Below, piece after piece: positions 1 through 33,680 of a DNA stretch of 33,707 nt; the stretch's first letter is position 1, and every line of letters begins with the position of its first letter. This DNA is from a virus. Under the pieces are notes generated by a model. The model had not been told where the DNA came from. It searched no databases and saw only the letters and a program-made list of their open reading frames with translations. The translations under genes were made by a program, and so were the position numbers. The DNA lies in the IMG/VR virus record IMGVR_UViG_3300030110_002194, positions 1 through 33,707 of that record. The stretch is one strand, 5' to 3'.

Positions 1-873
1 GTTGGTACTGCTACATCTGATGATGAACAAGTAGCTGATAGGTCTATTCATGCTGAATTAGAAGCTAATAGATCATATGTTATTGGTACAGCTCATGATG
101 AAGGTTCAGGTTATCCTGAGACTTGGTTCGACCAACCATATTCAACTGGTTTTGGTTTAACTCAAATATTTAAGACTTCTTGTGCTATGACAAATACTGC
201 AAGAGCTACTGTTCTTAAATATGAGCCAAATGAATGGGCTAGAACTTGGAAGAATAAATTAATTGAGCATAAATATGATATTGAGCAAACATTACTATTT
301 GGTTCACAAGCTACAGTAGGTAATACTCAATATACACAAGGTGCTCTTGACTTTGTTACTACATATGGTAATTCATTCACTTTAAATCCAAACACTAAAA
401 CAGCTGATGATTTCTTAGGAGATATGTCAAACTATTTAGATCCAAGATACAACAATAGTGCAGCTACAGTATTTTTCTGTTCAACAGCTATTTATAACTG
501 GTTGCATAAGCTTGGTGGATACTTTAGTAACAATCTTAATATTAACTCTAACTTTAGTGCTGATTTAGCAGTAACAGGTAGAAAGAAAGTATTAGGATTA
601 GATACTACTACTATATCAACTGTTTATGGTGACATGAATGTTGTTAGAAATGTTCACTTAGATGGAACTAATGTTCAGATACTTGGTATTAATATGAAGA
701 ACTGTGCATATAGACCATTAGTTGGTAATGGAGTAAACAGAGACACCTCAGTATATGTAGGTGTACAAACACTTGAAAACTCTGGTGTAGATAGAAGAGT
801 TGATTTAATTTTAACTGAAGCTGGTATGGAGTTCTCACTTCCTGAGTCTCATGCAGTTTGGTTATCAGCGTAA
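1..873 (+). CDS. Major capsid protein, SU10/DUF5309-like (5' end missing)
   Basis: The frame is open from the first base of the window, so the N-terminus lies outside; 290 codons are visible. The segment STGFGLTQIFKTSCAMTNTA, followed by a charged helix ending in DIEQTLLFGSQA, matches the SU10-type (DUF5309) major capsid pattern, in which a TQIF motif and an 'ATV/AQAV' strand precede a helix ending in D-I-E-x-x-L-L-G. The rest is a mixed beta protein with conserved-looking Gly and Asn turns (DGTNVQILGINMKN), as expected for an HK97-fold shell subunit. It lies directly upstream of two decoration-like genes and the adaptor genes, the usual place for a capsid gene. The ATG at codon 63 is internal and not the start, because the matching capsid sequence extends upstream of it. 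The family call is from motif memory, not a search. Confidence 0.85.
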   Translation, partial: VGTATSDDEQVADRSIHAELEANRSYVIGTAHDEGSGYPETWFDQPYSTGFGLTQIFKTSCAMTNTARATVLKYEPNEWARTWKNKLIEHKYDIEQTLLFGSQATVGNTQYTQGALDFVTTYGNSFTLNPNTKTADDFLGDMSNYLDPRYNNSAATVFFCSTAIYNWLHKLGGYFSNNLNINSNFSADLAVTGRKKVLGLDTTTISTVYGDMNVVRNVHLDGTNVQILGINMKNCAYRPLVGNGVNRDTSVYVGVQTLENSGVDRRVDLILTEAGMEFSLPESHAVWLSA

Positions 874-13734: not shown

Positions 13735-15711
13735 ATGCCTGATTTTTCTGGACAATTACAAATAGGTGGGGCTGATAATGATTATTCTCCAAGACTTGTT
13801 AGAGGTAGAGATGTAGATATATCTGCAGGTTCTTCTGAACTTACTAATACAAATCTTGCAGATGCAGATTTATTTTTAGTAGATGATGTAAGTACAAACA
13901 ATCCTTTAACAAGCAGTGCAAGTCCTGGTATGCAATCAGGAACTAAGAAAATACTTGCATCTTCTATGAAGACTTATTTTCAAACAGGTCTTCAAACAAC
14001 ATTAACATTTGGTATATCTGAACATAGTTTAATTAAATGTGGTACTGGAATTGTAGATGATGATTTTATAAGAGTTAATGGTACTACATTAGAAGGTTTA
14101 AATGCAAGTGAAGTTAAAACTGCATTAAGTTTAGCTAAAGCAGATGTAGGACTAGGTAATGTTGATAATACATCAGATGCAGATAAACCAATCTCCACAG
14201 CTACACAAAATGCTTTAAACGCTAAACAAGATACTCTTGTATTTGGTAAGTCAAATGGTAATGCTTTAAAGAGTGAAGAAGCATTAGCTACAGGTGAAGT
14301 TTTATTAATGGGTACTAATCATGTGCAAGGTCAATCTCTTTTAGATTTTAGAACTGCTTTGTTAGTATTGCCTATTGGAGGTGGTACTTTAAATGGTCAA
14401 TTAAAATTAGATTTTAGTGATGGAGATTCAGCTCCCTCTACAGATGGTCATATACTTGATACAGATAATACAACTTTCAATGATGCAACTACAAGTGCAA
14501 GTGGAACAGTATCACAATTTTATACTTATAAACTTTCTAAAGCAACTTTAACAGCTACAAATGCTTCTATTACAACAACTGATTCAGCTACATTATATTT
14601 AGAAGGAGCTACTGTTGCATCTACAAATCAGACTATAACTAATAACTATGCTCTTCAATTAGGTGGTGGAAATATTAAACTACCTAATGATAGCAAGATA
14701 CTATTTGGTGATGCAGGTGAATATATTAAAGGTGATGGTACAGACTTAACAATAGCTTCAAGTGGAGATATTATTTTAGATGCAGATGGTGGAGATGTTA
14801 CTATACAAGATAGTGGTTCAGCTACTCCAAGATTAGCATTAAAGAATACATCTGACCAATATGGTACACCTCCTGTACTTTCATTTGAAGTTAATCCAAG
14901 TAATGATGTAGGTGCTGCAGGTGATGATATAGGTAGGATAGATTTTAAAAGTGATGATGCTGGAGGAAATGTAACTACATATACTCAAATAATTGGAGAG
15001 ATAGCTGTAGCTACTGATGGACAAGAGGGTGGTAAACTTAGCTTAAAAGTAGCATCACATGATTCTGAAATGAATGATGGATTAATAATTCAAGATGGAA
15101 GTCAAGAAGATGAAGTTGATGTTACTATTGGAAATGGTGATAATTCTCTTACAATTATAAAAGGTAGATTAGCATTTGGAGATAGTGCTACCTTTGCAAA
15201 TATTATATTGGATGAAGATGATTTTGCAACAAATAGCAATTCAGCATTACCTACACAGCAATCTGTAAAAGCATATGTAGATAATACTATTAGAGATATT
15301 AAAGCAAGTGGTTTTAATTACAGTTCTACAGCAGGTACAAAAGTATATATTCCTTTAGGAGCAACTACAGGAGAATTTACAAGTTTATCAGGTGCAAATG
15401 AATTTAGAAATTTTGTAGTACCTTATGATGGATATTTAGATCAAGTTGTTTTTAGAAGTGAAGAAGCTTGTGGATCAACAATAGTTGGTTTTCATAAATC
15501 ATCAACAGGAACAGAAATACCAAGCTCTACAGCAAGTGCTACAGTTACAGTAGATATGACAGCAGATGATACTGCATTTAAATTTGACTTCACTTCTAAT
15601 AATACATTTAGTGCAGGGGATATAATAGCTATTAGCTTTGATCCTACAAATGATGCAAACGATACAAATGCTACAATAGTTTTAGTTTATGATGCTAGTC
15701 AAGGTGTGTAA
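13735..15711 (+). CDS. Long tail fibre with C-terminal jelly-roll-like domain
   Basis: A 658-residue fibre with ribosome site aggag eight bases before ATG. Residues about 130-164 contain ADVGLGNVDNTSDADKPIS and TATQNALNAK, a segment seen again and again in phage tail fibres (trimeric stalk repeat). A beta-rich shaft follows (ILFGDAGEYIKGDGTDLTIA, GDIILDADGGDVTIQDSG). Near residue 500, SALPTQQSVKAYVDNTI is the usual coiled trimerisation element. The last 140 residues form a separate beta domain (KVYIPLGATTGEF, NFVVPYDGYLDQVVFRSE) resembling a jelly-roll receptor-binding head. No cleavage or sialidase motif is seen. Confidence 0.8.
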   Translation: MPDFSGQLQIGGADNDYSPRLVRGRDVDISAGSSELTNTNLADADLFLVDDVSTNNPLTSSASPGMQSGTKKILASSMKTYFQTGLQTTLTFGISEHSLIKCGTGIVDDDFIRVNGTTLEGLNASEVKTALSLAKADVGLGNVDNTSDADKPISTATQNALNAKQDTLVFGKSNGNALKSEEALATGEVLLMGTNHVQGQSLLDFRTALLVLPIGGGTLNGQLKLDFSDGDSAPSTDGHILDTDNTTFNDATTSASGTVSQFYTYKLSKATLTATNASITTTDSATLYLEGATVASTNQTITNNYALQLGGGNIKLPNDSKILFGDAGEYIKGDGTDLTIASSGDIILDADGGDVTIQDSGSATPRLALKNTSDQYGTPPVLSFEVNPSNDVGAAGDDIGRIDFKSDDAGGNVTTYTQIIGEIAVATDGQEGGKLSLKVASHDSEMNDGLIIQDGSQEDEVDVTIGNGDNSLTIIKGRLAFGDSATFANIILDEDDFATNSNSALPTQQSVKAYVDNTIRDIKASGFNYSSTAGTKVYIPLGATTGEFTSLSGANEFRNFVVPYDGYLDQVVFRSEEACGSTIVGFHKSSTGTEIPSSTASATVTVDMTADDTAFKFDFTSNNTFSAGDIIAISFDPTNDANDTNATIVLVYDASQGV

Positions 15712-16378: not shown

Positions 16379-17260
16379 ATGAGAATAAAAAGTTTATTAC
16401 AAAAGTTTCAAGAAGGTGGATATTTAGATGAATTATCAGGTATTGACTTTAGTAATCCAGCTAACTTTGCTTTGTATCAAGAATTAGCAGGTTTAGAAGG
16501 TCAAGAGTTTGCAGATGCAATGTTAGAAAACTTTGGAATGCAACAGCAAGAAATTTTAGATGAACAGGGTAATCCTACAGGAGAGTTTCAAGATTTTTCT
16601 GTATTATTTCAACAATATGATTCAACAGCAGAAGAAGCCCTTAGAGACACTTTTACAACAGCTAAAGATAAAGCTAAATCAAGAGCAAGAAACAATCTAG
16701 CAGAGGCATTTCAATTAGCCAGAACAACTCCTGGAGGTTTTGGTGGTGTTGGCAAACCATTACAGTCTGCTTTAGGCAGAGTTTTTTCTGAAAGAGACAC
16801 AGCTTTTGATACTGCACAACAACAATATTATGGTGGGGCTTTTGATTTACAAGAAGATTTTGCAAGTTCATTTGAAGATCAATTAGCTAATCTTAGTGCT
16901 ATGGGTGTTGAGTTTATAAATCCTTTAAATCCTGATGAAAGTGATGAAGGAGAAGGTGATGAAGGAGAAGGTGGAAATGAAGATGTAGTAATTGATGATT
17001 CTACTGAAGAAGTTAATCCTACTGATCCTACTGATCCTACTGATATTTACACAGACTTTGGAGAAGATTTTGGTGGTGGTGGCTTTGATGCTGGTCCTGG
17101 ACAAGGAGAAGATAACTCTTGTAATAATCCACAGTTTGCTGCTGCATATCCAAATTTATGCAATCCATCTAATGTTAATTTTGATGATACAGCTCAAGAA
17201 GCTGGAGGAGATATGCTAGGAAATCCTTTTAAAACTGGTGAAGTATTTGGAGGAAATTAA
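16379..17260 (+). CDS. Putative internal virion protein with QEGG N-terminus and acidic repeats
   Basis: A 293-residue protein. I chose ATG 16379 over an in-frame ATG at 16331, which would add an unlike hydrophobic stretch overlapping the previous gene, because 16379 puts KFQEGG at residues 9-14, matching the previous protein's start. Residues 20-185 are mostly helical, Gln/Ala-rich. Residues about 185-245 are an extremely acidic linker built from tandem repeats (DEGEGDEGEGG, PTDPTDPTD). A Gly-rich tail contains GEDFGGGGFDAGPGQGED. The acidic stretch may be disordered and bind basic partners or mimic DNA. Its stop overlaps the next start as TAATG. Confidence 0.5.
   Translation: MRIKSLLQKFQEGGYLDELSGIDFSNPANFALYQELAGLEGQEFADAMLENFGMQQQEILDEQGNPTGEFQDFSVLFQQYDSTAEEALRDTFTTAKDKAKSRARNNLAEAFQLARTTPGGFGGVGKPLQSALGRVFSERDTAFDTAQQQYYGGAFDLQEDFASSFEDQLANLSAMGVEFINPLNPDESDEGEGDEGEGGNEDVVIDDSTEEVNPTDPTDPTDIYTDFGEDFGGGGFDAGPGQGEDNSCNNPQFAAAYPNLCNPSNVNFDDTAQEAGGDMLGNPFKTGEVFGGN
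16943..17044 (+). repeat. Short in-frame tandem repeats (15-base x2 and 9-base x3)
   Basis: Bases 16943-16957 and 16958-16972 are identical copies of gatgaaggagaaggt (DEGEG). Bases 17018-17044 are three copies of cctactgat (PTD). Both keep the reading frame, so slippage would change only the length of the acidic linker. Confidence 0.85.
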
Positions 17261-18834
17261 TGGCTATTAGATTCGAAGACACAAGCCCTGTTGCAGATTT
17301 TCTTAGAAATGAATTTCAAGATACAGTTTTAAATGTAACTAGATCTTTACAAGCTAGTGATGAAAAAAAAGAAAAAGAACAACAAGCTGAAGAATTAAAA
17401 TTAACTGAAATTAGAGCTACTAATATACTTAATGATTTAGAAAGTGCATCTAAAAACAATAATACATTAGATCCTTCTGAGATAGATAGATTTACAGATG
17501 GTATAGCTGCATTAAGAGCTACAGATCCAGATAGTAAAATAATACAAGCTACAGCAGATGGTGTGCAGAAGACTTTTAATAATGTTATTAATCAACAATA
17601 TGATACTATGGCTAGTATAAATGAAATTAAAAATATTCAAAACAGAGCTGAAAGAGCATTAAGTGCTGAGTATCAAAGTGGAGATTTAGATAGTTTAATT
17701 TCAGATTTAAATAATGTTGTTATGAATGTAGGTGGAACTTATAGTTCAAATGTTATTGATAGAACACAATTAAAAACTAGTCAATTATTAGATCAAGTTA
17801 CTCTTTTAAATAATTTAAAGAAAGAAGATGTTAGCGAAGAAGATGGATTGCAACTAGATGAAGCTAAAACTAAACTAGGAATAGTTGGTAAAACTCTTGA
17901 TGGTATAGATGGATTTCAAAGTAATACTTATCAAGAATTAATTAAATCAGCAGATTCTTTTATGAAAAGAGGTGATTATAAATTTGCAGCAGAATTATTT
18001 GATAAAGCAAAACTTAATCAAACTCAAGAAGCTTCTAAAGCTAGAGATATACAAAACTTATTAGATATTTTTTATAGTCCTGAAGGAGAATTAAAAGAAG
18101 AGTTTGTTAAAAGAAATGCAAATGTTTTTGATGGTTATAATAAGATGGTTCAAGTTCCTTTTGTTGATTTATTAAATACTGCAATAAATGATGCTCAAGC
18201 TGGTAACTTTGATCAATCTAAAAAGAATTTAAATTTAATTCCAAAAAGTATTAGAGCTAGTGAAAATGCTTTAAATGAATACAAATTAAGAGAAGCAAAA
18301 GAAAATGATAAAATAGAAGAAGCTTTAATGAAAGAAACTTCTATTAAAAAAACTCTTAATATAAATCAAACTATAAAAGATATGAATCCTTCTGATGTAA
18401 GTTTAGATGGTCTTTCTATTAAAGATAAAACTAAAATTAGAGAAGTATTTGATGATATTAAAAATTGGTCTTTTATAAAAACTACAAAAATACCAGATGC
18501 TGAAAAAGTTAGACTTAAGTATATAGATATTAATAAAAAGTTTGCAGATATGTTTGTTACTTTTGAAAGTGAAGATACTGATACTGATTTTTCACCTAAT
18601 TTAGTAGGGAAAATAAAACAATATGCTTCTGCAACTAATGAAATAGATAAAGAATTAGCTTCTAAAGCTATTGTAAAATTAATTAAAGATGGAAATGAAA
18701 TTGAAAATATTGATCTTAAATTAATAGGTAAAGGTAGCTCAACTAAACACACTATATTTAGAAATAAACTTAGACAGATACTAACATTAATAGATGATTA
18801 TGAAGTTTTAGATAATAATTTAAATGAGCAATAA
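17260..18834 (+). CDS. Putative internal virion protein, helical/coiled coil
   Basis: A 524-residue protein whose ATG overlaps the preceding stop (TAATG), with ribosome site aggaaa. It is nearly all helical and highly charged (SLQASDEKKEKEQQAEELKL near residue 35, and many heptad-like stretches), with no membrane helix or enzyme motif. Long soluble helical proteins of this kind, next to giant proteins, resemble ejection-core components such as T7 gp15-type proteins. That is inference from shape and order, not a recognised family. Confidence 0.5.
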   Translation: MAIRFEDTSPVADFLRNEFQDTVLNVTRSLQASDEKKEKEQQAEELKLTEIRATNILNDLESASKNNNTLDPSEIDRFTDGIAALRATDPDSKIIQATADGVQKTFNNVINQQYDTMASINEIKNIQNRAERALSAEYQSGDLDSLISDLNNVVMNVGGTYSSNVIDRTQLKTSQLLDQVTLLNNLKKEDVSEEDGLQLDEAKTKLGIVGKTLDGIDGFQSNTYQELIKSADSFMKRGDYKFAAELFDKAKLNQTQEASKARDIQNLLDIFYSPEGELKEEFVKRNANVFDGYNKMVQVPFVDLLNTAINDAQAGNFDQSKKNLNLIPKSIRASENALNEYKLREAKENDKIEEALMKETSIKKTLNINQTIKDMNPSDVSLDGLSIKDKTKIREVFDDIKNWSFIKTTKIPDAEKVRLKYIDINKKFADMFVTFESEDTDTDFSPNLVGKIKQYASATNEIDKELASKAIVKLIKDGNEIENIDLKLIGKGSSTKHTIFRNKLRQILTLIDDYEVLDNNLNEQ

Positions 18835-18837
18835 TTT

Positions 18838-21396
18838 ATGGATAAATCTCAAGTTTATAAAATTTTTCTTGAAAGATATGGTGAGTCTTTAGAGTTTCAA
18901 GGATTAAATGAAGATGATTTTTTAAGAAAATATATTGAGAATTATGCTACTGATTTAGAAAAACAAAAATACAATCTAAATAATATATATCAAAATCTTC
19001 CTAGAACAGAATTAGTTGATCCAGGTGTTCAAGCTAATGTTTCAACTTCCTTTGGATATTCATTCCCAACAAAAGAGCAAGCTTTAAAACCTTTTGAAAT
19101 AACTGCAAAAACTTTATTAACTAAACTTTCTCCATTAACTCCAGTTGATCCTATGGAAAGAAAATTTTTTGAACCAGAACAAACTATTGATTATAGTAAA
19201 AAAACTAGAGATACATTCCCTAGACTTTTAGTTGAATCTGTAGCAAATGATAATAAAATAATTGAAGAATCTGTTTTAAATAAAATAAATTCTAATCCTA
19301 AATATAAAGCACATTTTTTATATAGAAAACAAAATCCATTAAGTTATCCAAGTTCTTTAGCTGATCTTGCAGAATATGCTGGTATGGTAGTTCCTGAAGT
19401 AGGGAGTCAGATTGTAGCATATGGTTTAGGTGGTCCAGCTTTAGGTACAGCATATAATGCTACTAGAATTTTTGGTGGAGAAATGGCAGAAGATATACAA
19501 GAAGGATTAGATAGAGGTGAAGATCCTGAAAATATATTTAATACAGCTATTTTATCAGCAAGTTTATCTACAACAGCTCAAACAGTATTAGAAGCTGCAG
19601 GTATGCCAAAAGCATTAAAAACTAGATTTGGTACATCAAGAGCTAATAATGTATTAAATAAAATAAATAATAAACTTGGTAAAAGTATTTATTCTAAACT
19701 AAGAATAAATATAGGTGATTCAGCTAAATTAGCTGCAGGTAAAAAGTTTACTACTGGTGCTTTATTAGCAGCTGGACCAGCATTAAGAGAAGCTCTTACT
19801 GAAGTTTCACAGGGTGTAATAGATGAAGCAATAGATATGTATTTAGGATATGGAGATGCAGAAGATTTTAAACAAACATTACCTTTTGGTGGAGATGAGT
19901 TTGCTCAAAATTTAATTGGTGGATTAATGGGTGGAGGAATTTTTGGAGCTGCTGGTATTGCAAGAAAAACTAGAGACTTATATAAAGCAGCTGAAAAAAC
20001 AGAAGCATTAAATAATGAAGTATATATTGAAAATAGTTTACCTATAGGAGAACAAGAGCAATCTGTTAAAAGTAATGCTGATAAACAGTTTGTTCAAGAA
20101 AAACAAAATGAAAGAGAAGCTGCTAAAAATTTAAATAAAAATATACAAATTAATAATTTATTGCCTACTATAAAAACTACTGAAGACTATTTTAAACATA
20201 CAAGTCAGATTGTAGAAGGTGGAGGTATTTTTAATATAAATGAAATTAAAGATGGTAAAATAAAAGAAGATACTGATCAAGATACAAAAGATCTTGTTGT
20301 TTTAAATTCTCAAAAAAAATTAAATCCTAATCAAAAATTATTAGCTGCTTATCAAGCTTTAAAAAAGAAAGGTCTAAATGATAAAGCTATATTTGATTTA
20401 GTAGATGATGAAGATAAAAAGGATTTTGTAAAAGATGTTATATCTGGACAGATTCAAGAAAAAGGATTTGGAGATATTAGTAATAAAACTAAAGAAAAAT
20501 TAAAACAAGATACTAGAGATTCATTAGAATTACAAGGCAATCCTTTATCTTCTGAAGAAACTTTAAACTTAGTTAATGCAAAAAATCCTGCAGAAAGATT
20601 TAATATAATTAAAAAAGCTTATACTAGAGGTTATGAAGATCAACTTGATGATAAAGAATTAAAAAAAATAATATCACTTGCTCATCAAGAGTATGAACAA
20701 AAAAATAAAGATCAAGAACAAACAGGTGAAAAAGATTTAATAAGAAAAGAAGCCTCTGAAGAAATAAATAAAAATAAAGCTACTACAAAAACTATATCAG
20801 GTATTATATCTAATATGATAATGTCTAAAAATCCTGAAGAAGTTGTTAATAATTTAAAGTCTAATTATGGTATGTATAAAAATAGACCTGAAATATTAGA
20901 ACAAGCATTTAATAATCTTAATAATAAACAAGGTCAATTAGCTTTAACAAGATTAGTAAAATCTAATAAAAATTTATTAAAGAATGTAGAATTAGATAGT
21001 AAAGGTAAATTTAAAAGCACTCCAGCTAATATGCAGGCTTTAGCAAAATTTATGTCTAAAGGAGAACCTACTAAACAAAATATAACTTCTTTAAATTTAA
21101 AGGGTGATGCAGTTAAAAAAAGAGGTGAGACTAAATCTTATGATGAAGATAATATTGTTGAACAAGCTCAAGCTGATGAATATAAAAAAAGATTAGCTGC
21201 TATACAGGCTCAAGGAGCACAAGCTATTAATGTTACAGGAACAGATGATTCAAATAGCACAGCTAATAAAGTTAGAAAATACTACAATAAAAATGCTAGT
21301 CTTAAAAAAACTATAGATAAAACAAGTCCTACTATTGAACAAGAAACAGTTGATGCTTTACAACAAGACATAAATAATACGGAGATAGATTGCTAA
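18838..21396 (+). CDS. Large putative ejection protein with membrane-active central region
   Basis: An 852-residue protein three bases after the previous stop. The N-terminus (KIFLERYGESLEFQGLNEDD) resembles short helical openings of phage ejection proteins. Residues about 175-380 are Gly/Ala-rich and hydrophobic (EYAGMVVPEVGSQIVAYGLG, ALREALTEVSQGVIDEAIDM, NLIGGLMGGGIFGAAGIARK), a pattern common in ejection proteins that build a channel across the cell envelope. The C-terminal half is lysine-rich and helical. It ends in Asp-Cys, and its stop overlaps the next ATG as TAATG. I see no lytic-transglycosylase motif, so peptidoglycan cutting is not indicated here. Confidence 0.6.
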   Translation: MDKSQVYKIFLERYGESLEFQGLNEDDFLRKYIENYATDLEKQKYNLNNIYQNLPRTELVDPGVQANVSTSFGYSFPTKEQALKPFEITAKTLLTKLSPLTPVDPMERKFFEPEQTIDYSKKTRDTFPRLLVESVANDNKIIEESVLNKINSNPKYKAHFLYRKQNPLSYPSSLADLAEYAGMVVPEVGSQIVAYGLGGPALGTAYNATRIFGGEMAEDIQEGLDRGEDPENIFNTAILSASLSTTAQTVLEAAGMPKALKTRFGTSRANNVLNKINNKLGKSIYSKLRINIGDSAKLAAGKKFTTGALLAAGPALREALTEVSQGVIDEAIDMYLGYGDAEDFKQTLPFGGDEFAQNLIGGLMGGGIFGAAGIARKTRDLYKAAEKTEALNNEVYIENSLPIGEQEQSVKSNADKQFVQEKQNEREAAKNLNKNIQINNLLPTIKTTEDYFKHTSQIVEGGGIFNINEIKDGKIKEDTDQDTKDLVVLNSQKKLNPNQKLLAAYQALKKKGLNDKAIFDLVDDEDKKDFVKDVISGQIQEKGFGDISNKTKEKLKQDTRDSLELQGNPLSSEETLNLVNAKNPAERFNIIKKAYTRGYEDQLDDKELKKIISLAHQEYEQKNKDQEQTGEKDLIRKEASEEINKNKATTKTISGIISNMIMSKNPEEVVNNLKSNYGMYKNRPEILEQAFNNLNNKQGQLALTRLVKSNKNLLKNVELDSKGKFKSTPANMQALAKFMSKGEPTKQNITSLNLKGDAVKKRGETKSYDEDNIVEQAQADEYKKRLAAIQAQGAQAINVTGTDDSNSTANKVRKYYNKNASLKKTIDKTSPTIEQETVDALQQDINNTEIDC

Positions 21397-24300
21397 TGGC
21401 AGATAAATGTTCACCTAAACAATATTTAGATGCTACTATAAATACATTTCAGAATTATATGGATAATGCTATATCTGGAGGATGGAGTATAGAATCCAGT
21501 ATTAAATCAATGATGACTGAATTAGTAAAAGAAGATTCTGATATACCAGCTAAAGCTTTCTATACTTTTTTAAGAGACCATGAAGAATATCAATTTATAG
21601 CACCAGAAGTATCTGAACTTATAAAGACTGGAGAAAACATTAACTTCTTATCAGGCATTGTTCAAACTCCTGTATTACAAGATTTTATAGATCCAAATGA
21701 TATAGATCCAATTATAAACTCACAAATGTTTTTAGAAGAATTAGATGCTGAAGAAGGTAAGAGTGATGAAGGTGATATAAAAACTACTAGCTATGAAACT
21801 ACAAATTTAATTGATACTATATTTTTAAAAGATGTAAGCTTAAGACTTACTAAGCAACAATATGCTCAAATAGCTACAGATGTTAGAGATTTAGATTTTG
21901 ATAATGCAATGAAATATATAGAAAGAAAATTGCAGACAGATAACTTAACAGATACTATAGCTAAAGAACAAGCTTGGAGAAAATGGTGGAACTCTAATCT
22001 ATCTATAAATAGAAGACCTACTAAATCAGAAGTTTATCTTTCAGATTTATATAAAAAGAAAGATGGAACACTTTATGTAGTAAAAGATAAATTAAAATTA
22101 CAATTAAAAGCTAAAGAAGGAACTAACTTTATTAATCCTAGAACAGGCAAGAGAGAACCTAATACAGAGTTTGTTCCTTTTTATGATAATAATATTGTTT
22201 ATGGTAAGAACAAAACTGATACTCTTGAAAATAGCACATACACTATGAGTATAAAAGATGGAATCCTTAGTGCTAAAAAAAGAAAAGATAATTCTATAGT
22301 TCACTTTCAAGCTAATCATAGAATGTCAGCAGCTTATTTAAAAGCTATAGATATACAGTTTATGTCTTTAGATTTAGGATTTAAAAGAACTTTAGTTGGA
22401 GCAGTTCCAGGAGATTCAGGTAAGCTTGTATTTGCTAAAATACTACCTGAACATTATTCTTTAATTCTACCTGTAAGTGAATTTAAATCTTTAGATAATA
22501 TATTAAAAGAATTGCCTAAACCTGTTTATGATAAAATTGTAGAGAATGATTATAAAGCTTTAAAAACATTAAATGATTTATCTTCAGATGATAATATAAA
22601 TGCAAATGATTTACAAGAATATTATAGAACTATTGAGGAAGTAGCAGAAGCTAAATACATTGAATACTTTACTAGTGAATTTGAAAATAACAATATAAAT
22701 AAAAATCATTTATCAGATTTTTTAAAGATAACAGGTACTTCACTTAGTGAAAGAGGTATAGAATTTCAAGAAGCTAAAGAAATAGTAAGACCAGAACAAG
22801 CTAGACTTGGTAAGATAGGAATGTTTTTAGAAGAGATTGCTAAACATCAATGGTGGCAAGCTATAAGTTCTCCAGACTATTTAAAGATGGGAAGCACTTT
22901 AGATTTATTAAATAGATTAAAACTTATGATGGCTAAAGGTGTAGTTCCTGTAGGTTCTGGTAAAAGAAAAGGTGTTGTAATAGATCCTAATACTACTAAC
23001 TGGTATATAGATGGTAAGCTTGTTAATCATATGTTAGATATAGATGCTTTAAATAAAAATATATATGTAGGTGATGGAACTATTTTTGCAGATACAAGTT
23101 TTTTTGAACAGCTTAAATTGGCTGGTATACCTGATATGAGAAGTGTAAAAACTGTTGGCTATATAAATGATAATAATGGATTTGGTGTAAATAAAGGTCA
23201 AAAAACTATTGCATTGCCAGGCTTAGAGATTAAAAGAAAAGATAATAATCAACTGTTAATTAAAACTGTATTATCTTCTGATGGTAAAAGTGTATCAATG
23301 GAAGGACCAGGTGGTAAACCTATAAATGAGTTTTTAACATTTGATGAAAGAAAACTACATACAGGAGAGTATAGCAAAACAAATACTATACAAACTTACA
23401 ATGAAGATAGTGAAAGAATACTTATAGAAGAAGGACCAGCAAAACTTAGTACAGCAGCTCCTTTTCAGTTTTTAGATTTACTAGGAGATCCTAGAAAAGA
23501 ACATCAAAAAGTTAAAAAAATACTTGAAGATCATGTTTTAAATGTAGCTGATAATTGGTTAAGTAGATTACAAAAAATGTCTATTAGTCCTAAAGCTTTA
23601 CAAATAGGTATGAAAAAAATGTTAGAGTATCATGGAGATGATATATTAACAGAAATGCAAAAACATTATAGGCATAGTAATTTAGCTTTAGCACATCCAC
23701 ATATTCTTAATTCAGCATTGCCTATGCTTACTAATCAATTTTTAAGAGATGGATTACTACAAGCTAGAGTAACAAACCAAAGATTGTATGGAGGTACTTT
23801 AGTTAAGTTTAAATTTGGCTTAGGAAAGTATGAGCCATCTAATCAAAACAATGTTTTAATTAGTATAAAAAATACTAAGATGAGAGATATTGTTTATAAT
23901 AAAATGATAAAAGATTCCAAAAAAGCTGGTATAGCATATAATAATAAAGATGCAACTGATGAAGATAAAAGAAAAATATTAAATGCATATTTAAAAAATA
24001 AAGATACCTGGGTATTAACTTTTAGAAAACCAGTTGATTCTTTACCAGCTGTTTCTTTAAAAAAGATAGAAAGATTTACAGGCTACTGGGATTCTAATGC
24101 TGCCTATCTTCATCCACAAGATGTTTTTGGCAGTAAAAGAGGAGACTATGATGGAGATACTTTAGGCTTAGAAATACTACCTGAAAATATTACAAAACAA
24201 TTAATACCATTAATAGGAACTAATAATATATTTACAGAACTACCTGTAGAATTAGCACACTTTAAAGACAAAGAAGGTTTAAGAGTTGATAATAATTTGT

Positions 24301-25577
24301 CTGATAGACAATCTTTTTATGAATCTATGTCTCATCTTGTAAAAGGTCAAGGTGCTCAAGGTATGGCTTATAGTATGAGAAAGGTTAGAGCTAATTTATC
24401 TTTTAAAAGATTTAAGTTAAAATATAAAGATATGATAATATCTGTAATAGATCCTTCAGATGTTATTACTATGAACTATATAGAAGTCCAAGACTATATA
24501 AATAAAGATAATGTAAAAGAATACTTTAAAAATATACCTGAAATAAAACTAAAAGGTAAGAATTTAACTACTACATCAGAACATGAACTAGCATTAATAG
24601 CTAATGCTGCTACTGATAATGCTAAAAAACTTAAATTAACTTCTATGGGGTTTGTTGGTAAAGGTGGCAGGTTTTGGAAACCTAATGATTTCTTTATACA
24701 AAAGATATTTAAAGTTACAGAAGGTAATAGAACAAGAAGATTGAATATGCAATCTAGTGAAGACTTAGAAGTATTTCAAATTTTAAGAAAAGTTTTTAAA
24801 TCTTTTAATACTACAAGTCAAAAAAATGGAATGAACAAGTTTAGAAAAAATGCTAACATGAAAGAGATATTTAATTATTCAAGAGAAATGTTTGATAAAT
24901 TTAATCAGCCTAAAGATTTATTTATTTCAAATTTAGCAAAAGAGATTAGCACTAAAAATATAGAAATAAAGCCAGAGGATATTTCAATAGAGCCTGTTCA
25001 AACATCTGATGAAAGATTAATATCTTATATACATGAGTTTTCTAAGAACATGTTGAATAATAAAAATATATCTCATATTATGGATCAGAATGAAACAGTT
25101 TTAAATACATCTCATAATTATGCAATACAACAGATTTTAGAAGTAGTTCCAAGAGTTAGTAAAGAAGCAAAAAATAAAGCATATAATTGGTTTAAAACTA
25201 ATGGTGTTAAATATTTTGATGAAATACAAAAAGGTATAGCAACTCAAAATGAAGATTATAAATTAAATCCATCTATGTTAAAAATAGATTATAATGAAGA
25301 AATAGTTAAATGGACACAAAAATCTCAAGCTGAAATAAATAGATTACCTAATGGTGCTAGAAGTTATATAACTTATTTATATCTATTAAGGCTAGGAAAA
25401 AGATACCATTTACCACCAATGGATTTATTAGATCAAAATATGCTTTTAGAATATAAAAAATTATGGCATGAAAAATACTATAGTAATGATAGTGATTTAT
25501 GGATTAAAAGAGATGATAGCAGAATGAATAAATCTTATAAAAAAGTTACTGGTCAAGATTTAAATGAGGATTGTTAA
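21396..25577 (+). CDS. RNA-polymerase-like giant protein with DxDGD catalytic motif, probable virion RNA polymerase
   Basis: A 1394-residue protein read from ATG 21396 (TAATG overlap); a TTG at 21390 would add two residues. Residues 917-921 are DYDGD, inside FGSKRGDYDGDTLGLEIL. Upstream are R877-K-P879 and H906-P907. In bacterial RNA polymerase beta-prime the order is R-x-P, H-P and DFDGD, about 25 and 10 residues apart; here the distances are 29 and 11. DxDGD holds the three Mg-binding aspartates of the double-psi barrel in multisubunit, YonO/crAss-type single-chain and RNA-silencing polymerases. A later NAATDNAKK (1070-1078) recalls the 'D.aK' segment after this motif in single-chain relatives. 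I could not place the partner beta-like barrel. Its position among ejection-type genes suggests packaging in the virion. Confidence 0.78.
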   Translation: MADKCSPKQYLDATINTFQNYMDNAISGGWSIESSIKSMMTELVKEDSDIPAKAFYTFLRDHEEYQFIAPEVSELIKTGENINFLSGIVQTPVLQDFIDPNDIDPIINSQMFLEELDAEEGKSDEGDIKTTSYETTNLIDTIFLKDVSLRLTKQQYAQIATDVRDLDFDNAMKYIERKLQTDNLTDTIAKEQAWRKWWNSNLSINRRPTKSEVYLSDLYKKKDGTLYVVKDKLKLQLKAKEGTNFINPRTGKREPNTEFVPFYDNNIVYGKNKTDTLENSTYTMSIKDGILSAKKRKDNSIVHFQANHRMSAAYLKAIDIQFMSLDLGFKRTLVGAVPGDSGKLVFAKILPEHYSLILPVSEFKSLDNILKELPKPVYDKIVENDYKALKTLNDLSSDDNINANDLQEYYRTIEEVAEAKYIEYFTSEFENNNINKNHLSDFLKITGTSLSERGIEFQEAKEIVRPEQARLGKIGMFLEEIAKHQWWQAISSPDYLKMGSTLDLLNRLKLMMAKGVVPVGSGKRKGVVIDPNTTNWYIDGKLVNHMLDIDALNKNIYVGDGTIFADTSFFEQLKLAGIPDMRSVKTVGYINDNNGFGVNKGQKTIALPGLEIKRKDNNQLLIKTVLSSDGKSVSMEGPGGKPINEFLTFDERKLHTGEYSKTNTIQTYNEDSERILIEEGPAKLSTAAPFQFLDLLGDPRKEHQKVKKILEDHVLNVADNWLSRLQKMSISPKALQIGMKKMLEYHGDDILTEMQKHYRHSNLALAHPHILNSALPMLTNQFLRDGLLQARVTNQRLYGGTLVKFKFGLGKYEPSNQNNVLISIKNTKMRDIVYNKMIKDSKKAGIAYNNKDATDEDKRKILNAYLKNKDTWVLTFRKPVDSLPAVSLKKIERFTGYWDSNAAYLHPQDVFGSKRGDYDGDTLGLEILPENITKQLIPLIGTNNIFTELPVELAHFKDKEGLRVDNNLSDRQSFYESMSHLVKGQGAQGMAYSMRKVRANLSFKRFKLKYKDMIISVIDPSDVITMNYIEVQDYINKDNVKEYFKNIPEIKLKGKNLTTTSEHELALIANAATDNAKKLKLTSMGFVGKGGRFWKPNDFFIQKIFKVTEGNRTRRLNMQSSEDLEVFQILRKVFKSFNTTSQKNGMNKFRKNANMKEIFNYSREMFDKFNQPKDLFISNLAKEISTKNIEIKPEDISIEPVQTSDERLISYIHEFSKNMLNNKNISHIMDQNETVLNTSHNYAIQQILEVVPRVSKEAKNKAYNWFKTNGVKYFDEIQKGIATQNEDYKLNPSMLKIDYNEEIVKWTQKSQAEINRLPNGARSYITYLYLLRLGKRYHLPPMDLLDQNMLLEYKKLWHEKYYSNDSDLWIKRDDSRMNKSYKKVTGQDLNEDC

Positions 25578-28500
25578 TGGCAAAAACAGGATGTAATACA
25601 AAGTTAAGAGAAGAACTTAGGTCATTTCAAGCTGATGTAGTTAATGCTATGATGAATGATTTTGGTTCTTTAGAGCTTATAACTAATTTTGAAAAAGATG
25701 TTAGAAGTCTTAACTCTACAATTAAATCAAGAGAAAGAATTATAGTTAAAGACAAAAGTAAATTATTAAAATCTACTACATTACAGAAAATAGATTTAGA
25801 AGAAAAAATAAAAAATAATACTATTTTAAATAAACAAGACATTCAATCTTTAAAACAAATTATAAAAGATAAAAAAATACAAGATAAAAAAATACCTGTA
25901 ATAACTAATATATATAATAAAATAAAAAATCAACTTGAAAATTTTGCACATGAAAGACTTTATTTAATAGATCCTCATGTATATACAAGAGCATTAAAAA
26001 GAGGAATGTTTGATAGAGGATTAATTTTTAATAGTTTAGAAGATTTAGATTTAAGCCAGCTATATACATTAGATGGGTATACAGATAAAATATTTAATAG
26101 CAAACCATATAAACTAAAGAAAAGTACATTAAGATATTTAAATATAGATTTAAAAGATGAGTTTTATGATCCTGCTATATTAATGATGCAAGCAGATAAA
26201 ACATTGTCTGGATTAAGTGCAGTTAAAAAAATACAAGATACTCCTGATACTAGAGAAGCTGAGATAAATAAGTTTACAACTATCTATTCAGATTTAATTA
26301 CAAAATTTAATTTAGGTATTAAAACTATAGGTTCTGATAAAGGAGTATATTTTGGAAATCAGCCTGAATTAAAAAACAAAACACCTAATGTTAATAAAAA
26401 AGAAGAAATGCATTCTATTAGTTTTAATAATATAATGTCTTTTATAAATGATTTAGGTTTTGGTGAAACTAAATATTTTAATACATCTAACTTTGGAGAT
26501 TTATACAGTAAAGATGCAGTAAGAATAGTAGAGTATGCTAATAAAAATAAATTTTATATGTTTGGTGCAGCTAATTATATAGGACCTAATATAGATTTTA
26601 CAACTATAGATGGAGAAAGAGTTTACTATGCTATTGTTAATAAAAAAGTTGGTAAAAAAATTATACATTATGTAGAACCATTAATGACTGATATAATATC
26701 TCAAGATAATAGAGATTTGTATAGATTAAAATTTCCTTCAGACAGGACAGCTATTAAAGCTTTTAGAAATAGAATTAAAGATAAGTTTATAAATGCTATG
26801 CCAGAAGGTTTTTATAAAGCTAATGATCATATGATGATAGAAGGTGAAACTAAAGTAGGAGGTGAAGTTAATAGTTTTACTGTACCTACATTTGTAGAAC
26901 ATATAAAACTTGAAGATAGTCAAGTACCTAGTAAATTTTTAAATGATACAGATGTAGACTTTCAAAAAACAGATCCTAATGGTGCTCCATTTCACAGAAC
27001 TATATGGGATGTGCATTATGAAATAATGACTAATATATTAGATCCTTTATATGATATTATAGAGTCAGTAAATAAAAAAAATAAATCTAATCTTACTATA
27101 GGTGTTAAGAAATTAAAAAATAATTACAATGCTTCAGATGCAGAAACTACTATAAATGAATTAGAAATGATGACTGGTTCTAAAATAGGTTTAAGTGTAA
27201 AAGGAGATACAATATTTTTTGCTAATGAAAACATTGGTAAACAACAAAAAAATTATTTTCCAGCTAAATACTATTTAAATACTGCTATATCAGAAGGTGT
27301 AAGAGCAGCACAAGAATTAGAATCAAGAATAGAAGTTTTAACTGAAGAGTTTGAAGTTGCACAAACAGAATTTAATGTAAAACAAACTGTTGAATCACAA
27401 ACTAAATTACAAAAAATAAAAAATGAATTAGATGAAAAAGAAGAAGATTATGATATTCAACTTTTAAAACTTAATCAATATTTAGGTGATGAAAATCAAA
27501 GAGACATAGATAAAAAATTAAATGATATATCTCTTGATAAGATGATAAGAGCAATGAAAAGTAGATCTAATTCTATAAATGTAATGCTTAGAAGAAAAGA
27601 TCCTGAAGTTATATCTGATTATATTAGAGAAGTATTTAATGATTTATATCAAAATAAATTAGTAGCAGAAGTATTGCCAGACTTTGCTCAACTTTATGAT
27701 AAACCAGAAGTTGTAGATTATTTATTAGATCATTTAAGAGCTTCTTTAGGTTATTTAGATACTAGAGCATCTATGTTTGGAATAGATATATCATTCCCAG
27801 CTGTAGAAAAATTTTTAAATAAAATACCTTTTTTAAAAAATAAAAGTATTAATGAAGCATATATATTTCAATTAGCATCTATATATACAAGAATGATGTC
27901 AGGCTCTGTATTAAGAACACCTTCTGCACTTCAAAATTTAACTCAAAGTCTTAGTGTAGCAGAAGATGTTGGTATACAAATTACTACAGAAGCTTTAGAT
28001 TTTATAACTAATCCAGCTACTAGTGAAATAGCAGATGAAATGGTTACAAGAGCTGGTACTGGAGATTTAATATCTTCTTTATCTGATATGCTTACTAGTG
28101 GTATTGATGCTGATAAATCAAGATTTTTAGATGGATATTTTCCAATAGCTCAATTAGCATTATTACAAGGAAGTAAAATAAAATTTATTAAAAATGCAAA
28201 TTGGTATAGAAAGTTGTTTGAAGTTGCTTTAAAACCTAGAACTGAAAAAGAAGCTAATATAAAAAAACAAGTAGATTCTTTAATGAATAATACTTGGGAA
28301 GTTGTAAATGGATTAGCTAAGGGAACTTTAGGCAAAAAAGAATTAGATAAGTTAATGGAAATATTTAGAGATACAGGTATGACTCAAACATATATAAATA
28401 GATATGTATCTTATGGGTTAGGATATATTCCATATGCTAATAAAAAAAGTGAATTAAATCTTCTTACTTTTTCAGGAGCAGAATTAGGATTAAGAAAGCT

Positions 28501-29314
28501 TGCATTAGTTTCTGCAGCTATATATATTGATAAAAATTCTAAATCAATATTTAGAGATAGAAGTACAATGTCTAAAAAAGATTTATTAAAATATCCTCAT
28601 AGATACTTTGAACCAGCTGTATTAGAAGTTGGTAGAGCTAATGTATATAATACTATGTTTGGAATGACTCATGCATATATGGCTAAATTTTTAAGAGGTG
28701 GAGGTAAAACTGTTAATATATATAAACAGTATACTTGGAGACAAATAATAAGAGAACAAATAATAATGTATAATTTATTATTATCTTATCAAAAAAGATT
28801 AGAATATGAAGGCATAAAAGGTTTAAAAAGTGCTGGAAGAGTAGATAAAAGATTTGCTCAATGGTTTATGACTAGAGGTGCTTCTACAGCTATGAGTTTA
28901 CTTACTACAATATTTTTCCCTGTATTAAAACCAATGATTAAAATGCCAGGGTTTTTAATAAGAAATACTATAGGAGAAACAGGTTTAAATTTTAAAACTG
29001 CATATAAACTAACTAGAGGAGTATCATCTCCTAGTATGGAAATAGTTGGTAATTCAATTTTGTATGCAGCTTATTTACTTGGAATGCTAACTTCTGAAGA
29101 AGAAGAAACTGGAGAAGAAGCTAAAAATGATTTAATGTTTATATTTATGCCAATGTTTTTAAATCAATCTTTTGAACTTAGAGAAATTGTAAAAGAAAAA
29201 GGTATCTCTGGAGGCTTTGAGTATTTAAGTAAATACATTCCATTTTTATCAGAAGCACCTATACAAACAGGTATAAAGGAAGTTAAAAGTTACATAGAAG
29301 AGGAGGAAGAATAA
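25577..29314 (+). CDS. Giant putative internal virion protein, partner of the RNA-polymerase-like protein
   Basis: A 1246-residue protein read from ATG 25577 (TAATG overlap, gagg ribosome site six bases upstream); a TTG at 25571 would add two residues. Residues 1-120 are charged helix and coiled coil. Another coiled coil lies near residues 580-640 (ELESRIEVLTEEFEVAQTEF onward). The C-terminal 350 residues are more hydrophobic (LRKLALVSAAIYIDKN, MSLLTTIFFPVLKPMIKMPG, NSILYAAYLLGMLTSEEEE) with possible membrane-active helices, and it ends in an acidic run. No enzyme motif was recognised. It is the last gene before the convergent block, next to the polymerase-like gene, so a delivery channel or polymerase-associated role is an inference. 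Confidence 0.55.
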   Translation: MAKTGCNTKLREELRSFQADVVNAMMNDFGSLELITNFEKDVRSLNSTIKSRERIIVKDKSKLLKSTTLQKIDLEEKIKNNTILNKQDIQSLKQIIKDKKIQDKKIPVITNIYNKIKNQLENFAHERLYLIDPHVYTRALKRGMFDRGLIFNSLEDLDLSQLYTLDGYTDKIFNSKPYKLKKSTLRYLNIDLKDEFYDPAILMMQADKTLSGLSAVKKIQDTPDTREAEINKFTTIYSDLITKFNLGIKTIGSDKGVYFGNQPELKNKTPNVNKKEEMHSISFNNIMSFINDLGFGETKYFNTSNFGDLYSKDAVRIVEYANKNKFYMFGAANYIGPNIDFTTIDGERVYYAIVNKKVGKKIIHYVEPLMTDIISQDNRDLYRLKFPSDRTAIKAFRNRIKDKFINAMPEGFYKANDHMMIEGETKVGGEVNSFTVPTFVEHIKLEDSQVPSKFLNDTDVDFQKTDPNGAPFHRTIWDVHYEIMTNILDPLYDIIESVNKKNKSNLTIGVKKLKNNYNASDAETTINELEMMTGSKIGLSVKGDTIFFANENIGKQQKNYFPAKYYLNTAISEGVRAAQELESRIEVLTEEFEVAQTEFNVKQTVESQTKLQKIKNELDEKEEDYDIQLLKLNQYLGDENQRDIDKKLNDISLDKMIRAMKSRSNSINVMLRRKDPEVISDYIREVFNDLYQNKLVAEVLPDFAQLYDKPEVVDYLLDHLRASLGYLDTRASMFGIDISFPAVEKFLNKIPFLKNKSINEAYIFQLASIYTRMMSGSVLRTPSALQNLTQSLSVAEDVGIQITTEALDFITNPATSEIADEMVTRAGTGDLISSLSDMLTSGIDADKSRFLDGYFPIAQLALLQGSKIKFIKNANWYRKLFEVALKPRTEKEANIKKQVDSLMNNTWEVVNGLAKGTLGKKELDKLMEIFRDTGMTQTYINRYVSYGLGYIPYANKKSELNLLTFSGAELGLRKLALVSAAIYIDKNSKSIFRDRSTMSKKDLLKYPHRYFEPAVLEVGRANVYNTMFGMTHAYMAKFLRGGGKTVNIYKQYTWRQIIREQIIMYNLLLSYQKRLEYEGIKGLKSAGRVDKRFAQWFMTRGASTAMSLLTTIFFPVLKPMIKMPGFLIRNTIGETGLNFKTAYKLTRGVSSPSMEIVGNSILYAAYLLGMLTSEEEETGEEAKNDLMFIFMPMFLNQSFELREIVKEKGISGGFEYLSKYIPFLSEAPIQTGIKEVKSYIEEEEE

Positions 29315-31405: not shown

Positions 31406-31884
31406 TATTTTAACCCTTTCATGTATTTATTTGTAGCTATATCAGCACCTGGTATCTTTTTACCTTGCTTCATATCAGCTAACATTCGTTTTTTGTCTAG
31501 CTTCTTAGTAATCACTTCTACCCAATAAGTCTCTGGTATCTTACTTTCATCTATAATATCTACAGATTTAGATTCCATAACTTTTAAAGGATTGAAAACT
31601 GAATGCTCTGGAAGCTTACCTGTTTTCTCTGACACTTCTATCATAGTGTTCTTCATCCACTTTTGTGAATTTTGTCTTACTTTCTTTAGCTTTTGAATCT
31701 TAGATATATATTCATCTGCTAAGTCTATGTCTGCTTGTACTTTCTTAAACCAAGCCCACATACCATCTTCTTTTTTTGCTAGTTCATAGAACAGGACTTC
31801 AAGTCTCTGCTCTATTTCTTCTTCAGTTGCAAACAGATCTGTATTAGCTGTTGCAATCTCTGATGTTATTTCAAATATATTCAT
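31405..31884 (-). CDS. Gp157-family phage protein
   Basis: A 159-residue protein matching the Siphovirus Gp157 family (PF05565) in plan. It has an N-terminal helix (MNIFEITSEI), a long central coiled coil (DEYISKIQKLKKVRQNSQKW), then short strands SVDIIDESKIPETYW and a final IKKxDK-like helix plus GKKIPGADIATNKYM. The pattern 'IPe.yw.......dKk.l...lk.GkkipGa' is characteristic. A role in phage DNA replication or resistance has been proposed for the family. The ATG overlaps the primase stop (ATGA), with agagg seven bases upstream. Confidence 0.8.
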   Translation of the reverse strand: MNIFEITSEIATANTDLFATEEEIEQRLEVLFYELAKKEDGMWAWFKKVQADIDLADEYISKIQKLKKVRQNSQKWMKNTMIEVSEKTGKLPEHSVFNPLKVMESKSVDIIDESKIPETYWVEVITKKLDKKRMLADMKQGKKIPGADIATNKYMKGLK

Positions 31885-33680
31885 AAAGTTGCCTCTTTTA
31901 TTTGTATTTTATTCATTTTCTTTAACTGACAATTATCTGGTTTAAGATAAACACATATACCTTCTTTCTCTCTATTAGCTACTGTATCTAGTTTTATGTA
32001 ATTAATTAACCCTCTATCATCTTTACTAGGAACAATAGATAATAATTTATTTGCAGTATATGCAATCCTTGCACTACCTCTAGCAGCAGCAATAGCTGGT
32101 ACTCCCATTCTTTTGTTCATAGATTCTTTAGTCATTTCTGATATAGCAAATACAATAATATTATTTCTAATAGCAACTTCTTTTAAAGCTGCCATTATTT
32201 CTTCCATTTTACCATTCATATCTTTGTTATTGCTTTCCATTAGACCAATATGATCTATTACAATTATCTCTGGTTTTTCAGGCATTGAACTTAGCTTTTT
32301 ATCTATTTCAAAAGGAAAACATGATTTGTAGTCAATCATAAGCCATTCATCATTGTATCCTGACTTCTTACCTGATTTTAAATCATCTTCTACTTGTTCA
32401 TAAGATAATCCTTCTTTAATCATTCTATGTCTCATATACATTTGTCTTGGACTCATCTCCATTTCTAAGAAATAAGTTTGTCTTTGAAATGCTATCATCC
32501 AATTATGTATTAACATAGTTTTCATAGCTTTAGGTTCTGATTGTAATACAACTAGTTCTCCTGGATATATAGGAAAATCTTCACCTTCATATATATCACC
32601 AAGATTAATAGGATTTAAACCACTAGAATAAAATTCAATAGCATTATCTTCCATACCACCGAATCCAACTATATCACTATTCTTTTTAGCTCCATACAAT
32701 CTACAAGTTTGACTGCAAAAAGATTCTCTAATGAAATCACTACAACCATAATTGTAACCACTACCATCATGTCCAGTATAAGCTCCATTTATAAGCCTTA
32801 ATACTTCATCCTTTTGTAGCTTTTTCTTAGCTCCTTGATTTACTTGTTGTCTCCAGTCTTCCATAATAATATTAACTATATTTTCTGGATACCTAAGTCT
32901 AAACCAAGATGCAAGTCTTAAGCCAATCATATGTCTTTTACCTTCTCCTCTCCAGTTTAACATATCTGTAATACAAGGATAGTTTACTGGATCTGGTTGT
33001 CTTCCTTTTACAACAGGTTTAACTTCTTCTTTCTTAGTCTTCTTTTTTCTTTTAGGTAAAGCATCAAAGACTGGTTCTATTTCTTGAAAGAAACCATAAG
33101 GTGATGGCTTTCTAGGTTTAGATGCAAACTCTTGTATATCTTTTTCATCCAGTTCACATAAGTCATTATATTTTAATAACTCTGTAACTTCTACTTTAAA
33201 TAGATCTACTTTTGAGTTTACTGTATTGTTTATTCTAATAAGTCTAGTCTTATCAGTTACAGAAGGATCAGCATATTTGAATATATTTTTAGCTGTAAGT
33301 GCATCTTTAACATACTTGTGCAAGTTTTCATGTGGTTCCCATTTAAAGCTTTCTCTTGGAATAGAAATATGAAATCCTCTACCACTAAAGTAAACTTTTG
33401 ATGGAACATTTAGATTATTAAGTATTTTAAGTACCTTATCAGCTTTATTAATAGCTTCTTTTAGATTATTACCATCTACATCTATTATATGTTCTCCAGA
33501 AAGATATATAATACCTTTGTATCCTGCTATCTTTCCTTTTTCTTTAACATATTCTTTAACAGATTCATCATAACAGAACAAAGACATAAACTTATCTTTA
33601 CCACCTCTCTGTTTAGAGATTTCATTTTCAGTTAAGAAATGACCTCTATTAGATAGGCTTGGTGCATATTCTCTTATCAT
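31881..33680 (-). CDS. Primase-helicase: AEP-type primase fused to RecA/DnaB-like helicase
   Basis: A 599-residue replication protein with ribosome site ggag before ATG 33680. The N-terminal domain is an archaeo-eukaryotic-type primase: D67-V-D69 in HIIDVDGN, SGRGFHISIP with His104, and DKTRLIRINNTVNSK as the third motif. A middle segment, YGCSDFIRESFCSQTCRLYG, holds Cys residues as in PriL/PriCT-like zinc or Fe-S modules. The C-terminal RecA-like domain has Walker B IIVIDHIGLM (Asp476) and a sensor-like FAISEMTKES. Its Walker A is unusual: SEPKAMKT (381-388) keeps Lys387 and Thr388 but lacks the glycines of GxxxxGKT. It would prime and unwind phage DNA. It heads the - strand operon, and no DNA polymerase gene lies in this window. 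Confidence 0.85.
   Translation of the reverse strand: MIREYAPSLSNRGHFLTENEISKQRGGKDKFMSLFCYDESVKEYVKEKGKIAGYKGIIYLSGEHIIDVDGNNLKEAINKADKVLKILNNLNVPSKVYFSGRGFHISIPRESFKWEPHENLHKYVKDALTAKNIFKYADPSVTDKTRLIRINNTVNSKVDLFKVEVTELLKYNDLCELDEKDIQEFASKPRKPSPYGFFQEIEPVFDALPKRKKKTKKEEVKPVVKGRQPDPVNYPCITDMLNWRGEGKRHMIGLRLASWFRLRYPENIVNIIMEDWRQQVNQGAKKKLQKDEVLRLINGAYTGHDGSGYNYGCSDFIRESFCSQTCRLYGAKKNSDIVGFGGMEDNAIEFYSSGLNPINLGDIYEGEDFPIYPGELVVLQSEPKAMKTMLIHNWMIAFQRQTYFLEMEMSPRQMYMRHRMIKEGLSYEQVEDDLKSGKKSGYNDEWLMIDYKSCFPFEIDKKLSSMPEKPEIIVIDHIGLMESNNKDMNGKMEEIMAALKEVAIRNNIIVFAISEMTKESMNKRMGVPAIAAARGSARIAYTANKLLSIVPSKDDRGLINYIKLDTVANREKEGICVYLKPDNCQLKKMNKIQIKEATL

Follow-up and report, generated by a model that had tools for sequence, protein, structure and literature searches.

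A putative single-chain, two-barrel RNA polymerase among the giant virion proteins of an uncultured phage lineage

A giant gene near the end of the virion block of an uncultured phage very probably encodes a DNA-dependent RNA polymerase of the single-chain, two-barrel type, which would be carried as cargo in the virion, ejected, and used to transcribe the first phage genes. The gene lies in a 33,707-nucleotide stretch of DNA (here called the window) that makes up most of a 35,745-base IMG/VR virus record. Single-chain two-barrel virion polymerases are already known, namely the crAss-like gp66 and gp96 of phage P23-45; the protein described here, whose activity and packaging are inferred, represents a new family of this type from an uncultured lineage. 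The computations presented below show two predicted barrels in one chain, conserved catalytic residues, a conserved gene order and the layout of cysteine residues. The relevant features are listed in Table 1.

Table 1. Features of the polymerase gene and of its surroundings (residues numbered from the ATG unless noted; model numbers refer to the 700-residue core)
Feature	Position	Strand	Remarks
Major capsid protein, lineage marker	1..873	+	phrog_1328; truncated at its 5' end by the window
Upstream giant virion protein, 852 aa	18838..21396	+	only Cys is the last residue
Cys852 codon, C terminus of upstream protein	21391..21393	+	only Cys of that protein
Gene for the probable single-chain two-barrel RNA polymerase	21396..25577	+	1393 aa; from ORF, relatives and predicted fold
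Cys5 of polymerase	21408..21410	+	one of its only two Cys
First barrel, predicted, DPBB-B type, beta-like	22962..23423	+	AlphaFold2 strands, model 18-171; GDG and two invariant lysines
K585 (K587 from TTG), invariant lysine 1	23148..23150	+	alignments A3, A4, A9
K600 (K602 from TTG), invariant lysine 2	23193..23195	+	alignments A3, A4, A9
Second barrel, predicted, DPBB-A type, beta-prime-like	23796..24248	+	model 296-446 against E. coli beta-prime about 345-492, Z about 12
R877-K-P879 (R-x-P)	24024..24032	+	R and P invariant in 16-sequence alignments
H906-P907	24111..24116	+	present in window; not conserved in family
D917-Y-D-G-D921, metal-binding triad	24144..24158	+	D-x-D-x-D in 27/27 relatives
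Long predicted helix past the barrel	24306..24404	+	model helix 466-498
Cys1393, last polymerase residue	25572..25574	+	Cys in last 5 residues in 27/27 relatives
Downstream giant protein, 1245 aa, last virion-block gene	25577..29314	+	only Cys is residue 6
Cys6 of downstream protein	25592..25594	+	N-terminal Cys in 26/26 downstream proteins
Primase/helicase, convergent replication strand	31881..33680	-	

Catalytic signature and family

The open reading frame is listed from a TTG codon at 21390. An ATG at 21396, which overlaps the stop codon of the upstream gene as TAATG, is most likely the start of the gene and agrees with the residue numbers of the first-pass annotation; tool numbering counts from the TTG and is therefore higher by 2. 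That annotation had read the active site of an RNA polymerase beta-prime subunit into the residues R877-K-P879, H906-P907 and D917-Y-D-G-D921. All three elements were found in place, with spacings of 29 and 11 residues as claimed and with F876 directly preceding the first of them. A degenerate DNA pattern for H-P followed by G-D-x-D-G-D at the same distance (the span from H-P to DYDGD being 24111-24158) occurred once in the window and in none of 100 shuffles, and matched only 8 places among 2.9 million IMG/VR contigs. Four of these places belonged to the same family and two to ordinary-looking beta-prime proteins; one lay in another long phage frame and one was apparently a chance occurrence. 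A long frame with FHPIGFYTSQGGDFDGDS in a viral contig of 70,971 bases (L011:2-2254) may represent another two-barrel polymerase, as yet without annotation, from a different phage lineage.

Searches with the polymerase itself were unproductive: no significant match was obtained in Pfam, in PHROGs or with phmmer against the PDB, tblastn against 50,697 phage records gave no match, and a sequence-based profile search of the PDB returned chance matches only. A single-protein search of viral contigs likewise found none, and it was after this failure that the family was found, through the degenerate pattern. Starting from the pattern matches, tblastn identified two contigs at E about 1e-30 and a third at 6e-7, and profile-guided searches added further relatives. 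The polymerase has relatives in at least 27 IMG/VR contigs, all from one podovirus-like, apparently mostly marine lineage with no cultured member. The major capsid protein (MCP) of the window is 59-73% identical to those of three relatives; at least 557 IMG/VR contigs encode relatives of the capsid protein, and cultured-phage records contain no close ones. Among 16 long contigs picked solely by their capsid, a profile match to the polymerase was obtained for 11. In four of the other five (G010, G011, G013 and G016) a giant open reading frame contains D-x-D-x-D and shares the cysteine layout; the fifth, of 31.6 kb, was left out of that inspection. An MCP 69% identical to that of the window is encoded in a contig (L173) of a marine metagenome-assembled genome labelled Flavobacteriales TMED123, a weak hint that the host belongs to the marine Flavobacteriales, in the same phylum as the hosts of Crassvirales.

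The signature did not fare equally well in all its parts. The D-x-D-x-D motif is found in 27 of 27 relatives and R-x-P in 25, G011 and G016 lacking a recognisable copy. D917, D919 and D921 never change, as the first-pass annotation had required of a true active site, while the residues between them vary freely (GDYDGD, ADSDGD, GDHDHD, GDGDGD, GDYDID, ADFDLD, RDFDMD). The H-P pair, replaced in relatives by NP, NA, NW, SP or HH, is not conserved and thus constitutes the weak part of the signature. In 16-sequence alignments of the core, the relatives are 18-26% identical to the window protein and few positions are invariant, among them K585, K600, R877, P879, D917, D919 and D921. The two upstream lysines, invariant wherever aligned, had escaped the first-pass annotation, as had the terminal cysteines described below. 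Since it is conserved in relatives, the motif is more than a chance occurrence.

Predicted fold and known polymerases

Two AlphaFold2 models were built without templates, from family alignments only: one for residues 199-1395 (tool numbering; pLDDT 59.5) and one for a 700-residue core (pLDDT 73.0, pTM 0.65). Confidence in the models is moderate and parts fall below a pLDDT of 50. The core model contains two barrels in one chain. A barrel of the double-psi, beta-prime type had been expected around residues 870-930; it was predicted there by AlphaFold2, and VIA-align matched it, taken alone, to the beta-prime proteins of E. coli, AR9 and PhiKZ (Z about 12-13, rmsd about 3). In the model the D-x-D-x-D metal site sits in a beta-prime-type barrel, as in two-barrel RNA polymerases, and the same chain provides the other trait of these enzymes, a beta-type barrel with conserved lysines, although the lysines were not compared residue by residue. 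The 33-residue helix modelled after the second barrel would stand at the place of the bridge helix; this is inferred from the model, no residue-level comparison with the bridge helix having been made.

The structural comparisons proposed in the first-pass annotation pointed to the expected proteins. With Foldseek against the PDB, 6vr4, the virion polymerase of phage phi14:2, was the top match for both models (E 4.5e-5 for the longer one, 2.1e-7 for the core), followed for the longer model by QDE-1. With VIA-align, the core matched QDE-1 (2j7n) first (Z 14.1, rmsd 5.6, 427 residues), in an alignment of model residues 2-630 with chain residues 671-1144 that covers both barrels. In a library of viral structures, the best matches were viral proteins without a name, with E values down to 2e-32, along with crAss-like proteins. 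The profile comparison, also proposed, was run and found no significant similarity to crAss-like gp66 (hhalign probability 0.6%, controls 0-0.3%) or to YonO (0.1%). The best profile match was gp96 of the Thermus phage P23-45. With a probability of 5% over 49 columns it is not significant and offers a hint, not proof, at the level of sequence profiles, that this is the nearest polymerase; because the probability is so low, no membership in the gp96 group is claimed.

Among known systems, phi14:2 gp66 (Crassvirales) resembles the window protein in being a single chain with two barrels, D-x-D-x-D and R-x-P, and differs from it in having DFDID instead of DYDGD and in its greater length (2180 aa). 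The window phage does not belong to Crassvirales, since its terminase, portal and capsid proteins fall into other PHROGs families (phrog_38, 156 and 1328, against phrog_6681, 6547 and 11589 in phi14:2); this assignment relies on family markers without deeper profile comparison. P23-45 gp96 shares R-N-P-V, G-G and D-F-D-G-D, as well as a spacing of 38 residues from R to D that is found in several relatives. However, its polymerase forms the N-terminal part of a siphovirus tape measure that is 5002 aa long and without cysteine, whereas in the window family the polymerase is C-terminal or alone in an ejection gene of podovirus type, so that the trait typical of gp96 is not met. The RNA-silencing polymerases QDE-1 and RDR2 have the single-chain two-barrel fold, and QDE-1 the highest VIA-align Z, but they are eukaryotic, about 12% identical and surrounded by different domains. 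YonO of SPbeta is also a single-chain two-barrel polymerase with D-x-D-G-D; it differs in its 14 cysteines and its location outside any virion block. N4 gp50 (Schitoviridae) is a giant ejected polymerase encoded beside other ejection proteins and free of cysteine; unlike the polymerase of the window, it has a T7-type fold and no terminal cysteines. Podoviruses of the Fredfastierviridae type (119X, PaP2) and Desulfofustis phage LS06 have a distantly related MCP and a long virion block with a giant last gene, but their giant proteins contain neither the D-x-D-G-D polymerase signature nor cysteine; the giant genes that close the virion blocks of 119X, Tiera and Desulfofustis phages showed no polymerase motif.

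Gene neighbourhood and terminal cysteines

The genes of the window run from the MCP through tail genes and giant genes to convergent primase/helicase genes. Here and in the relatives, the polymerase gene is the last but one of the virion block and is followed by a giant gene and then by the convergent replication genes; in contigs long enough to show it, a downstream gene of about 800-1300 aa closes the block. The polymerase stands alone in the window and forms the C-terminal part of a protein of 2300-3567 aa in most relatives, the chain ending about 465-580 residues past the motif. The first-pass annotation had seen no T7-type polymerase gene; PHROGs scans of the larger open reading frames showed none either, although not every frame was covered. 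Three other features of the region were recorded. The gene at 6985-7806, unusual inside a podovirus tail-gene block, matches phrog_29758 (E 1.6e-95), and its product is 48-56% identical to proteins annotated 'tRNA ligase' in cyanophages P-SSM2 and P-SSM7 and to proteins of metagenomic large phages. A 658-aa tail-fibre-like protein (13735-15711) matches many fibre families at once through residues about 125-190, which suggests a low-complexity repeat. G+C falls from about 0.32 to 0.24-0.28 across the giant-protein genes (17000-29300).

The order giant protein, polymerase, giant protein at the end of a virion block convergent to replication genes is shared with phi14:2 (g067-g066-g065), whose record annotates g067, g066 (as catalytic subunit) and g065 from MS/MS of virions. 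Profile comparisons revealed no significant similarity between the downstream family and crAss gp65 or between the 852-aa protein and gp67; the correspondence of the neighbours therefore rests on position and cysteine layout only.

This layout is peculiar: the three consecutive giant proteins of the window (852, 1393 and 1245 aa) have cysteine only at the termini that face each other. The rule also holds on 26 other contigs: over 27 contigs, all 27 polymerases have a cysteine within the last 5 residues and all 26 downstream proteins one near the N terminus, with no internal cysteine in about 98,000 residues, where about 750 would be expected from the 0.76% found in other open reading frames of 300-800 aa at the same loci. 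(One extra row in the cysteine table was the L025 downstream gene picked up by the pattern.) Two relatives with a separate upstream gene repeat the arrangement, with positions counted from the start of the open frame: 1521 aa (Cys1516), 1440 aa (Cys 10 and 1440) and 1227 aa (Cys 10) in one, 1637 aa (Cys1636), 1588 aa (Cys 6 and 1588) and 1300 aa (Cys 3) in the other. Where the upstream gene is fused to the polymerase gene, the first cysteine pair is missing. An identical layout is present in phi14:2, with g067 of 1797 aa (Cys1797), g066 of 2180 aa (Cys 3 and 2179) and g065 of 1421 aa (Cys 3). In crAss001, cr112 and DAC15 the terminal cysteines are kept along with a few internal ones; the chain order predicted for these phages is gp47-gp50-gp49, and their gp47-type protein (L137, L175 and L176 for crAss001, DAC15 and cr112) keeps a single C-terminal cysteine, with its gene on the opposite strand. 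Giant ejected proteins outside such chains are free of cysteine: N4 gp50 (3500 aa), gp51 and gp52, P23-45 gp96 and 119X gp25.

An origin of the terminal cysteine as a by-product of the TAATG overlap was rejected, given that 0-4 residues follow it in relatives and that crAss gp47 keeps it on the opposite strand. As the sequences are related, the cysteine counts are not independent events; still, accident is very unlikely because identities are near 20%, internal cysteines have been purged and the pattern recurs in Crassvirales. No description of terminal cysteines or disulfides in crAss phages or ejected polymerases was found in the literature searched, although priority cannot be excluded.

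Proposed delivery and alternatives

The case for a virion enzyme remains an inference, from the position of the gene, the synteny with phi14:2 g067-g066-g065 and a depletion of cysteine like that of known ejected proteins, and it draws on work with phi14:2 and P23-45 (PMC10770324, PMC7886860). There is no biochemical, proteomic or promoter evidence for the polymerase, so that RNA synthesis, packaging, ejection, early-gene promoters and disulfides are all inferred. The polymerase would be packed as one of the three giant cargo proteins, pass through the tail partly unfolded, as has been argued for crAss001 cargo (PMC10172136), then refold and transcribe the first genes. With less confidence, we postulate that in the oxidised virion Cys852 of the upstream protein would pair with Cys5 of the polymerase, and Cys1393 of the polymerase with Cys6 of the downstream protein. 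Such disulfides might join the three giants head to tail and hold their order during ejection, until reduction in the cytoplasm broke them and freed the polymerase; in relatives with the first two genes fused, a peptide bond would take the place of the first link. That this lineage and Crassvirales both deliver their three giants as a disulfide-linked train, polymerase in the middle, released by the reducing host cytoplasm, is a proposal we find as easy to doubt as to accept.

It is possible, if rather unlikely, that the polymerase is as described and its terminal cysteines serve instead to coordinate a metal ion jointly or to form some other contact between the cargo proteins. Virions assemble in the host cytoplasm, which is reducing until release, and a single cysteine per terminus could join other ligands in a metal cluster. 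Metal binding is the main alternative to disulfides, and the cysteines could also serve assembly; the few extra internal cysteines of crAss-like members likewise speak against a disulfide link. On the other hand, the termini inspected have no conserved second cysteine adjacent to the first, one cysteine on each side fits a disulfide best, and the virion of crAss001 is known to be stabilised by disulfides elsewhere (PMC10172136).

It appears improbable that the protein is a two-barrel RNA polymerase synthesised during infection to serve middle or late genes, with its gene lying beside virion genes by chance. Such non-virion enzymes do exist (P23-45 gp64 and the nvRNAPs of PhiKZ and AR9). Yet the gene is flanked within the virion operon by those of two giant proteins, and in most relatives it is joined to the upstream gene; its product lacks internal cysteine as known ejected proteins do, and phi14:2 g066 matches it in position and cysteine layout. 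Even less support was found for a polymerase fold that has lost catalysis and now serves as a structural ejection protein. Such a change of role could account for the very great divergence and for the fusion with other ejection domains, but both lysines, R-x-P and the three aspartates are kept as the rest diverges to about 20% identity, and D-x-D-x-D persists even though the residues between the aspartates vary freely. A DNA polymerase of the PolD type, which likewise has two double-psi barrels (PMC10770324), is scarcely tenable. The best matches here were single-chain RNA polymerases. D-x-D-G-D alone is common in calcium-binding loops, but the idea that the motif arose by chance in some unrelated giant protein of the virion is already refuted by conservation across 27 contigs and by the independent recovery of RNA polymerase folds.

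Under the preferred reading, that of a virion-borne polymerase, the single-chain two-barrel RNA polymerases gain a new family from a phage lineage that is abundant but uncultured. Injection being inferred here, this reading indicates that phages outside Crassvirales also use the crAss-like strategy of injecting a polymerase of their own. What keeps several giant proteins together and correctly ordered on their way through a narrow tail is an open question, for which the terminal-cysteine rule offers a hypothesis that can be tested now on cultured crAss-like phages. The rule also makes it possible to predict from sequence which cargo proteins lie next to each other.
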